Made by a program: the position numbers and the translations under genes
Virus record (IMG/VR): IMGVR_UViG_3300033388_001888
Span: 1 to 36,609 of that record
DNA length: 36,609 nt
Source: a virus
Reading direction: 5' to 3' (one strand)
The notes under the pieces: model-generated
What the model was told of the DNA's origin: nothing
The model's database searches: none
What the model saw: only the letters and a program-made list of their open reading frames with translations
Shown here: positions 28,664 to 36,609 of the stretch, piece by piece
Layout of the letters: each line of letters starts with the position of its first letter
How positions within the stretch are numbered: position 1 is the stretch's first letter

Positions 28664-28801
28664 CTATAAATCATCAACCTGTTTCGCTATAAATTCTTTC
28701 ACTTTGATTTCATCATCTAGCTGCCTTTTAACATCTAAAAACATAGCGGTCATTTCAGCGAGTGCCTTTTCTAACTCGCTATATTTTGGTTTTTTCTTCA
28801 T
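28664..28801 (-). CDS. Small coiled-coil protein (45 aa)
   Basis: Starts inside the methyltransferase gene (23-base overlap) after a GAGGCG site. MKKKPKYSELEKALAEMTAMFLDVKRQLDDEIKVKEF and so on forms a single heptad-like helix. It ends ten bases before the next ATG. No family; probably a real small gene given start signal and packing. Confidence 0.55.
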   Translation of the reverse strand: MKKKPKYSELEKALAEMTAMFLDVKRQLDDEIKVKEFIAKQVDDL

Positions 28802-29567
28802 TGGTCGCCTCAATTCTATCCTTGGCTATTTGAAAATAATCCGCATCAAGTTCAATACCGATAAATTTACGGTTTAGGTTTTTTGCTGCTACTCCCGTCG
28901 TTCCGCTGCCCATTGTAAAATCTAAAACCGTTTCGCTTTCGTTGGTGTATGTTTTTATTAGGTACTCCATTAGTGCTACTGGTTTTTGTGTTGGGTGCAA
29001 TCCTCGCTCACGGTTAAATCTCTGTATGCTTCTGGGGCATCTTAATTTATCAACACTTAGTTTTTTACCCCCTTCCTGTGTGCCGTAAACAGAGTCTTTT
29101 CTTCCACTATCAATAGTAGTTGTAACTTTACCTTTCCGGCTGCCAATTCTTTCCTGTTTAATTTGGTTGTATGTTGTTTTGCCTTTACCAAATATTAAAA
29201 CGCTTTCGTGCTCCTTCATTGGCTGATACTTTACCGTTGCAAAATTACTACCGCTATCTTTTTCCCATATCCACTCATACTTGAACATTTTTAAATTACT
29301 CGTTACAAGCACACTGGTAAACGGCTGGCTTGCTGTCATTACAATTGCCCCATTGGGCTTAATAATGCGCTTTAACTGCTCCCACATTGGCTCTAACGGT
29401 ATAATTGAATCCCATTTGCACGCCGTAGTTCCATAAGGGGGGTCAGCTAATATCATATCGACTGAGCCATCGGGAATTTCTTTCATTCGTTCCAGGCAAT
29501 CACCTAACATTAAATTGATATCGCTCTTTACTTGCTCCGCTTCTCGCTGTTCTGAATAATGACCCAT
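28779..29567 (-). CDS. DNA methyltransferase, N6-adenine/N4-cytosine type (262 aa)
   Basis: DPPY at 42-45 (ILADPPYGTTACKWD) is the catalytic motif IV; the AdoMet motif DFTMGSGTTGVAA (216-228) comes after it, giving beta-class order. HPTQKPVALMEYLIKTYTNE is the usual motif before it. Target recognition would be in about 105-185. No cognate endonuclease is nearby, so it is a solo enzyme, likely protecting phage DNA from host restriction or marking it. AGGG site upstream. Confidence 0.92.
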   Translation of the reverse strand: MGHYSEQREAEQVKSDINLMLGDCLERMKEIPDGSVDMILADPPYGTTACKWDSIIPLEPMWEQLKRIIKPNGAIVMTASQPFTSVLVTSNLKMFKYEWIWEKDSGSNFATVKYQPMKEHESVLIFGKGKTTYNQIKQERIGSRKGKVTTTIDSGRKDSVYGTQEGGKKLSVDKLRCPRSIQRFNRERGLHPTQKPVALMEYLIKTYTNESETVLDFTMGSGTTGVAAKNLNRKFIGIELDADYFQIAKDRIEATNEEKTKI

Positions 29568-33240: not shown

Positions 33241-33266
33241 GCCAGCAATTAAGCTGGCTTTTTTAT
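33241..33266. terminator. Bidirectional terminator after Xre gene
   Basis: GCCAGC/GCTGGC stem, 6-base AATTAA loop, T6 on the plus side and an A-run before it that gives a T-run on the minus strand. It ends the Xre transcript and the converging leftward dpdA-like operon. Confidence 0.88.
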
Positions 33267-33275
33267 GTGTGCTAT

Positions 33276-33464
33276 TTAATCTTTAGCGTCCAACCTATCG
33301 AACTCACGATGAAGCGCCACGTCAAGATCACTCATATTCAATAACTCCTGTGGCATTTCAACCCATAGATCATCACCTGGGATTTGATACTGTATAGCTT
33401 TCGTTTCTTTGTTTCGCCTGTAGTTCAAACCCCTGCATTCAACTATTTGACTCACCAATTCCAT
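33276..33464 (-). CDS. Hypothetical protein (62 aa)
   Basis: ATG 33464 with GAGGG upstream (an adjacent GTG extends the frame by one codon). MELVSQIVECRGLNYRRNKETKAIQYQIPGDDLWVEMPQELLNMSDLDVALHREFDRLD. No family known. Last gene of the leftward dpdA-like operon. Confidence 0.6.
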   Translation of the reverse strand: MELVSQIVECRGLNYRRNKETKAIQYQIPGDDLWVEMPQELLNMSDLDVALHREFDRLDAKD

Positions 33465-33475
33465 CACTTACCCTC

Positions 33476-33694
33476 TTATGTTGTGCTACTTATTGAGTGC
33501 TTGCTTTCAAACTCGGCTATTTTATTTGATAGCTTCATTAACTCAAAACAGGTTTGATAATCGTGATAATCCGGATCATCTAAATCCTGTGAAGTTATCG
33601 CGGCCTTTAGCTCTTTGTTCTTTTCGTCAATGTAAGATTCTAATTCAGTAGCTACACTAACCAAGAATTCAGCAACACCTTTTAATTCACTCAT
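33476..33694 (-). CDS. Hypothetical helical protein (72 aa)
   Basis: ATG 33694 is favoured: AAGGG lies at good distance, and it follows the zinc-ribbon stop by one base; an in-frame GTG at 33703 is less likely. SELKGVAEFLVSVATELESYIDEKNKELKAAI and so on forms two or three amphipathic helices, acidic. Unrecognised. Confidence 0.62.
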   Translation of the reverse strand: MSELKGVAEFLVSVATELESYIDEKNKELKAAITSQDLDDPDYHDYQTCFELMKLSNKIAEFESKHSISSTT

Positions 33695-33695
33695 A

Positions 33696-33809
33696 CTATC
33701 CACCCTTATTATCTAAACATTCATCACAAAAATAACCTTCGTCTCGGTCGTTATGTTCTTCCGGCTCGAATTCTTTTTCGCAGCTAAAGCATTCCTTTGA
33801 ATCTTCCAT
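33696..33809 (-). CDS. Tiny zinc-ribbon protein (37 aa)
   Basis: MEDSKECFSCEKEFEPEEHNDRDEGYFCDECLDNKGG has two CxxC pairs (7-10 and 28-31), a minimal zinc ribbon. Weak GGTGACAA site; its end carries the ribosome site of the next gene. Directly downstream of the TGT-like gene, so may work with it. Confidence 0.55.
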   Translation of the reverse strand: MEDSKECFSCEKEFEPEEHNDRDEGYFCDECLDNKGG

Positions 33810-33822
33810 TGTTGTCACCCTT

Positions 33823-34596
33823 TTAGTTATTAAACATTTCTTGTTGAGCTTCTGTGCCCTTTACTTTCTCAACTTCTTTGTTTTCATCAATCCAAATCGG
33901 CGCACAATTGTGCTGCTCAATGCGAGCTGCGATTATTTCAGCTCGCTGCGACCTTGTTGGCGGTTTATATATTCCATACCTGTCAATACTGCCACTATTT
34001 ACCGCTGCGTTCGTACTGTCGGCACTTGATAGCGGTAGCCTTGTAAATACTTTCGGGTTAAGCATACGTAGGCCGTGGAATTTGCAGCGCGGTCTACCAT
34101 TACTATCACAAGCAACACTCATTGCCTCAGTCATACGAACCCACCATGATTTTGTATTTGGTGTACCCCATTCGCCAGAGCTGCCAAACGCCACCCATTC
34201 AAAATTACTCACTAGGTAATCAAGATACTCAAGCGATTCGTGTAGATGCCAAACTGGAACGCCCTTTGCTCTATAGCCTCGTTTTACCCACTTGTGAACT
34301 AAGTCCAAATTATCCTGCTCGTTACCGTCGATTTTATCGGGTATCAAGCACCACTCAAAATTTGGGTGAGCTGCGTACTCGTTTACCCAATTCGCATAGT
34401 CCTCGAAATTAATCTCACCCTTTCCGGCTTTCCAGTGACTAAAAGCACCGTTATCTAAAACAAAGCTTTGGCAGTATTCAGCAACAATAGCTATATCGTC
34501 CTGGCGGTAAAAACTCACTAGGGCATGGCGACCAAGTAAAAATCTCGGTCTATCTGCTGCGGTTCCGCCCAATGGTGTGCCGTGATAGTGAATCAT
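33823..34596 (-). CDS. TGT/DpdA-like enzyme, putative 7-deazaguanine transferase (257 aa)
   Basis: TIM-barrel-like protein resembling tRNA-guanine transglycosylases and phage DpdA. Key blocks: FVLDNGAFSHWK (Asp48; compare DSGGFQ of TGT), CLIPDKIDGNE, VPVWHLHESLE, VAFGSSGEWGTP (138-141; compare the TGT GGLAVGE loop), GRPRCKFHGLRML (168-179) and PLSSADSTNAA with Asp193 as candidate nucleophile. DpdA enzymes swap guanine in DNA for preQ0-type bases, protecting phage DNA from restriction. No preQ0 synthesis genes are visible, so the host would have to supply the base. tRNA or another substrate remains possible. The C-terminal zinc site of TGT is absent. Confidence 0.75.
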   Translation of the reverse strand: MIHYHGTPLGGTAADRPRFLLGRHALVSFYRQDDIAIVAEYCQSFVLDNGAFSHWKAGKGEINFEDYANWVNEYAAHPNFEWCLIPDKIDGNEQDNLDLVHKWVKRGYRAKGVPVWHLHESLEYLDYLVSNFEWVAFGSSGEWGTPNTKSWWVRMTEAMSVACDSNGRPRCKFHGLRMLNPKVFTRLPLSSADSTNAAVNSGSIDRYGIYKPPTRSQRAEIIAARIEQHNCAPIWIDENKEVEKVKGTEAQQEMFNN

Positions 34597-34623: not shown

Positions 34624-34797
34624 TTAGCTGTACTTTATTTGATTTAATAAGGTGTTTGCGAACCTGTGGTATTCCTGCGTATCTGGCATGCTCCCGTCAA
34701 ATTCAGAATCATCAATAATGTTCTGCTCTAAAAAGTCAGTTAGCATTTGTATTTCTTTCTCGCTCAATTTAATTGCCATGGTTCTTTCTATTTCCAT
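34624..34797 (-). CDS. Hypothetical protein (57 aa)
   Basis: First gene of the leftward dpdA-like operon. Two in-frame ATGs, 34797 and 34779, are possible; neither has a strong ribosome site. MAIKLSEKEIQMLTDFLEQNIIDDSEFDGSMPDTQEYHRFANTLLNQI is helical and acidic. No family recognised. Confidence 0.55.
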   Translation of the reverse strand: MEIERTMAIKLSEKEIQMLTDFLEQNIIDDSEFDGSMPDTQEYHRFANTLLNQIKYS

Positions 34798-36051: not shown

Positions 36052-36609
36052 ATGCCAGTAACAGACAGCAAAGAAGATCTACCGGAATACATGGAATGCG
36101 AAAAGCATGGAAGATACCTCATTAGATTTACTGAAATGAACAGTAAGTATTTTTATACGGATTACTGCCCAACTTGCGCACATGAAGAAAAACTAATCGA
36201 AAAAGCCAAAGATAAGGAGCATGCTGAAAAAATAAAGAGAGCCATATACGAAGATACACGATTAGATGCCGGTATATCGAAGCGCAACCTACATAAAACG
36301 TTCGAGGCATACCAATGTACCAGTGAAGGCCAAACTAAGGCTAAAAACGATTGTATGCGTTATGTTAACGAATTCCCACACGATAAAAGCATGCTAATGG
36401 TTGGCGGTGTTGGTACTGGCAAAACATTGCTAGCATCAGCAATGATTGATCAAATAGTTGATAAGCATAGTTGCGAGATAATCAAACTGATTGATTTGGT
36501 TCGCTCGTTAAAGGCTACTTGGGCGAGAGATAGTGAAACGACAGAGGAAAAACTGATTAACTACTACACAAAAATTGATTTACTAGTTGTTGATGAGGTT
36601 GGCTCACAA
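36052..36609 (+). CDS. dnaC: DnaC-like helicase loader, 5' part (continues at base 115)
   Basis: First 186 codons of the 250-aa loader. It has an N-terminal Cys/His group (C16, H19, C39, C42, H44), probably a small zinc site not found in E. coli DnaC. GISKRNLHKTFEAYQ is the family block before the ATPase, then Walker A GGVGTGKT (118-125) and Walker B VVDE (179-182). The gene runs into the contig end and continues in frame from base 115. It starts two bases after the initiator stop. Confidence 0.9.
   Translation, partial: MPVTDSKEDLPEYMECEKHGRYLIRFTEMNSKYFYTDYCPTCAHEEKLIEKAKDKEHAEKIKRAIYEDTRLDAGISKRNLHKTFEAYQCTSEGQTKAKNDCMRYVNEFPHDKSMLMVGGVGTGKTLLASAMIDQIVDKHSCEIIKLIDLVRSLKATWARDSETTEEKLINYYTKIDLLVVDEVGSQ
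36496..36609. repeat. Contig-end direct repeat, right copy
   Basis: Exact copy of bases 1-114. Collapsing the two copies gives a circle of about 36,495 bp and one uninterrupted 250-codon helicase-loader gene. Confidence 0.95.

Follow-up and report, generated by a model that had tools for sequence, protein, structure and literature searches.

The gene on the minus strand at positions 33823–34596 of the window, the 36,609-bp virus contig that makes up the whole source record, encodes a stand-alone DpdA, and with a probability of about 0.75 this enzyme exchanges guanine in DNA for a 7-deazaguanine taken from the host, by way of an aspartate-linked intermediate. The analysis established that the protein belongs to a phage DpdA family, that its model has the TGT fold, that it carries an aspartate pair and two histidines as in the DpdA of Escherichia phage CAjan, that synthesis genes are missing from a complete-looking genome, and that the family is repeatedly paired with a Vut_1 transporter. 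From this we infer the activity of the protein, DNA as the target, host preQ0 as the precursor and the part played by each residue. The window protein is a fresh example of a described and widespread kind. Hutinet et al. (2019) defined the "DpdA only" phages and a gammaproteobacterial singleton cluster, listed 76 phages with DpdA that have no synthesis genes, and proposed host preQ0 as the precursor for such phages (PMC6884629), and the novelty implied by an earlier note on this DNA, made from the letters alone, is therefore not upheld.

The reading frame is intact, running from an ATG at 34596 to a stop codon at 33823 and encoding 257 residues, and a plausible ribosome-binding site is located in the sequence 5' of the gene, gagagtaacaacaATG. 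The blocks LDNGAF, GSSGE and SADSTN named in the earlier note, which gave no strand, are all present. In a profile search residues 1–230 match PHROG_887, annotated as queuine tRNA-ribosyltransferase, with an E value of 1.1e-66; tblastn finds homologues in 208 phage records, and a scan of IMG/VR for relatives gave at least 595 confirmed matches, so that the similarity of the frame to known phage proteins is far beyond chance. The nearest kin in bacterial genomes are found in Marinobacterium (69% identity) and in another Oceanospirillaceae genome (66%). Pfam and NCBIfam scans of the protein gave no family at E ≤5, including TIGR00430 and the Pfam TGT family, a PADLOC scan gave no match, and phmmer and profile searches of the PDB sequences returned chance matches only, with no TGT. 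The family is present in just 3 of 398 Pseudomonadota genomes, too few for a 2x2 test against QueC.

The AlphaFold2 model of the protein has a pLDDT of 91.8, and all 50 matches listed by VIA-align are arcTGT, TGT, bacterial DpdA (7ui4) or Cap10, with Z scores of 15.0–15.9 over 214–239 residues. The model aligns to arcTGT (1iq8) with Z 15.9, to the TGT-preQ0 complex (2qii) with Z 15.4 and to the DNA preQ0 insertase DpdA (7ui4) with Z 15.2 and an rmsd of 3.0 over 216 residues. TrpA and other barrels were ranked first by Foldseek; re-ranking with VIA-align put TGT and DpdA on top. The fold matches to arcTGT and Cap10 equal those to DpdA (Z within 1), as would be expected also of a TGT-fold enzyme acting on another target, which might be tRNA of the host or of the phage, or else a protein in the manner of Cap10 and CdnD. 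Such a target is nevertheless very unlikely, since the protein lacks the zinc motif as well as any TGT match in Pfam or NCBIfam and any PADLOC match, its sequence is akin to phage DpdA, and dADG has been found in the DNA of the phages of two family members. The C302/C304/C307/H333 site (CxCxxC...H) is invariant in bacterial TGT, and none of the five cysteines among the 257 residues of the window protein form a CxCxxC motif, in agreement with the missing tRNA-type zinc site proposed earlier. The chain is also short as described, ending about 60 residues past the putative nucleophile.

Five residues, D48, D87, H117, H174 and D193, are invariant in an alignment of 48 diverse family sequences with identities down to 33%, and all of them except D87 are conserved in CAjan DpdA. 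The codon of D48 (34453–34455, minus strand, like those that follow) lies in LDNGAF, and the residue is the putative counterpart of the aspartate in the DSGGF block of TGT, equivalent to D89 in the E. coli-type enzyme and D102 in that of Z. mobilis; CAjan DpdA has an aspartate here, and the alignment to DSGGF is weak. D87 (34336–34338; IPDxIDG) might take part in base recognition, and since it is absent from CAjan the base preference may differ. H117 (34246–34248) is located in VPVWH and H174 (34075–34077) in FHGLRML. A conserved histidine at position 196 of 9g, absent from DpdA2, is a criterion for DpdA, and H174 was compared with it via the CAjan histidine only. Comparison of the family profile with host TGTs by hhalign recovered one short, weak block, DNGAF/DSGGF, and for this reason the residues were mapped through CAjan DpdA. 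D193 (34018–34020), in SADSTN, is on this ground the putative catalytic nucleophile, its role being taken over from TGT by way of the CAjan match and the fold, as the profile comparison with TGT did not extend beyond the DNGAF/DSGGF block. Together D48 and D193 form a putative conserved catalytic pair, matched up by sequence alignment. The fold model, the kinship to CAjan DpdA and the conserved residues all support the base-exchange enzyme of TGT/DpdA type suggested in the earlier note. In the presumptive reaction the enzyme would remove guanine from DNA with formation of a covalent intermediate on D193, D48 might serve as general acid/base, and the incoming base would be a 7-deazaguanine, preQ0 or a relative, supplied by the queuosine pathway of the host.

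An exact 114-bp terminal repeat (positions 1–114 and 36496–36609), which is a contig overlap, closes the record to a circle of 36,495 bp when one copy is removed, and a DnaC-like helicase loader (phrog_50) crosses the join as a single frame of 261 codons. The size is close to that of Vibrio breoganii phages (36.3–37.8 kb), with a terminase that is 77–78% identical, and judging from the virion genes the host should be a marine gammaproteobacterium. The record is very probably complete. Profile searches found no match to FolE, QueD, QueC, a radical-SAM protein of QueE type or Vut_1 anywhere in it, which confirms the absence of FolE, QueD, QueE and QueC noted before; in view of the circular closure and the DnaC-like frame across the join, the lack of all these matches very probably extends to the entire phage genome. 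A search for a DpdC-type protein (PF03883) found none. The CDS at 1560–2426 on the plus strand was considered as a QueC and rejected, as it is PAPS-reductase-like (PF01507, phrog_424) and negative in the QueC search; the PAPS-reductase-like protein belongs to a superfamily common to QueC.

The use of a host precursor, which had also been suggested earlier, is supported from two sides. Each of the 48 host genomes tested that carry the family has a QueC scoring above the curated cut-off, a result with little power because the gene is nearly universal in the phylum (88–89 of 100 Pseudomonadota genomes). The pairing of genes is stronger evidence on the precursor supply than these counts. A gene of the Vut_1 (YhhQ) type is located within seven genes of DpdA in 7 of 102 dereplicated loci, and in all seven it is immediately adjacent (+1 or -1) and on the same strand (P about 2e-6 if the slots are independent). 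All seven products are above the Pfam Vut_1 cut-off, and several of the adjacent Vut_1 proteins show sub-threshold matches to the NCBIfam models of queuosine-precursor transporters. Loci with Vut_1 directly beside a singleton DpdA are L159, L161, L281, L291, L155, L229, L222 and L322. The family DpdA adjoins the transporter in 9 of the 11 isolate phages examined that have a Vut_1 gene, namely PEAT2, AB3P2, LHE71, Lg3, Phc, RCIP0319, Opt-719, Tbat1_6 and ECO111 5-P. QueC is absent from these nine, and from all 16 phages bearing the family or its transporter, with CAjan detected as the positive control. On the family tree the presence of Vut_1 requires at least 6–7 gains or losses and is found on several independent branches; an adjacent Vut_1 is missing throughout the subclade of the window gene. 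The recurrent pairing thus links the family independently to 7-deazaguanine salvage and is an addition to the known picture, one that may already have been described.

Exceptions to the pairing are mEp021 (L347, L349) and MagusPhagus (L346), in which a Vut_1 gene is found beside methyltransferase genes with no DpdA alongside; no DpdA was detected in 49.7 of the 54.7 kb of mEp021. The transporter may serve another modification in these phages. A small ORF lies on one side of it and a methyltransferase gene, which is of the cytosine type in mEp021, on the other, and a second methyltransferase lies just upstream of the transporter.

The window DpdA gene has phage replication and recombination genes as its neighbours. 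Small same-strand ORFs flank it on both sides, and downstream of it lie Erf and a DNA methyltransferase (phrog_67; 28779–29567, minus strand), a second DNA-modification gene of the phage. All of the small ORFs are on the minus strand. The one upstream (34624–34797) encodes 57 residues, or 51 from an ATG at 34779, and has no family match. Downstream are an ORF with a CxxC...CxxC pattern, a possible zinc ribbon (33696–33818; 37 residues from an ATG at 33809), and a likely helical one of 72–75 residues (33476–33703), both with no match in Pfam, followed by an ORF of 62–63 residues (33276–33467), the last before a terminator-like hairpin at 33258–33241. The earlier note had placed the gene in an early operon together with tiny proteins of zinc and helical type. 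The flanking same-strand ORFs are there; early expression is presumed, and no promoter stood out from shuffled sequences. No functional link of DpdA to the tiny proteins was found, and neither the CxxC...CxxC nor the helical one occurs in any recurrent neighbour cluster of the family loci. The recurrent neighbours of the family are integrases and methyltransferases of the Dam and C5 types. A small protein of about 80 residues is encoded directly upstream (-1) of the DpdA gene in 12 loci (e.g. L272). Phage BTP1 has a family member (L086, 6001–6756) in a P22-like early region, between an ead/Ea22-like gene and eaA and near abc2, erf and ral.

The amount of modified base bears on what the enzyme is for. 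Deletion of dpdA in Escherichia phage CAjan abolishes dPreQ0, and CAjan DpdA, in a phage that also makes preQ0, replaces about a third of the Gs (PMC6884629). Phage 7-11 has dADG at 0.02% of Gs and no modification was detected in Orion (PMC6884629), and in MED16, which has dpdA only, dADG makes up 0.13% of Gs, and the restriction enzymes tried were not noticeably affected by it (PMC8306585). Computed from these two papers, the modified bases per genome are about 9 in 7-11, about 33 in MED16 and about 8,400 in CAjan. The same enzyme could in principle put preQ0 in place of many guanines and so block restriction enzymes, as DpdA does in CAjan, and DNA methyltransferases are found near many family members, with one in the window. 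Against this stand the 9–33 sites per genome in the singleton phages assayed and the missing effect in MED16, so that bulk protection is a doubtful reading of the window gene, and a general restriction shield is unlikely for the singleton family under the conditions measured. The "light-weight anti-restriction strategy" of the earlier note is not supported, on the same grounds. The traces in the assayed relatives could also be due to contamination or a side reaction, and being near the detection floor they would suit a gene that at present has no enzymatic function, either a relic or an accessory "moron", as would the scattered occurrence of the family among temperate phages such as BTP1, in their accessory early regions. 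A relic is however extremely unlikely, considering the intact frame, the catalytic residues that are invariant in 48 sequences diverging down to 33% identity, and the repeated coupling to the Vut_1 transporter.

An active singleton DpdA remains the preferred reading, and its purpose is probably a sparse or conditional marking of the phage DNA rather than bulk protection. A more definite form of this, in which singleton DpdAs in general would act as site-specific or conditional markers of some tens of defined positions per genome and not as weak restriction shields, is a tentative and on balance unlikely proposal; the salvage module would then consist of the transglycosylase, sometimes together with its own precursor importer, and the 7-deazaguanine might be placed at, for example, packaging, replication or operator sites. 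The function of stand-alone DpdAs is named as an open question in both PMC6884629 and PMC8306585. The family is large, and since some of its phages, LHE71 among them, infect E. coli K-12, the question is testable in laboratory strains. The recurrent DpdA-Vut_1 pair is further and independent evidence for a handling of queuosine precursors by the family, and it points to salvage.

Among the known systems, Cap10 (9ntn, the Cap10-CdnD complex) has the TGT fold in common with the window protein (Z 15.7) but shows only 9% identity, and works with a CD-NTase protein, a partner not seen at the window locus. Bacterial TGT and arcTGT likewise share the fold and a DSGGF-like block, but the window protein is about 120 residues shorter than bacterial TGT, lacks its CxCxxC zinc motif and has no TGT family match. 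CAjan DpdA is a homologue with 25% identity (BLAST, E 4e-15); it has 306 residues and is encoded beside FolE, QueD, QueC, QueE and a preQ0 transporter, whereas the window record has no match to any of these. The closest likeness is to the gammaproteobacterial singleton DpdA cluster, the third group in PMC6884629, with which the window protein has active-site motifs in common and whose phages, like that of the window, are devoid of preQ0 genes. The DpdAs of MED16 and of Salmonella phage 7-11 are each 34% identical to the window protein (BLAST) and fall inside the same family tree, in another subclade than the window gene, whose nearest kin are those in Oceanospirillaceae genomes with 66–69% identity.
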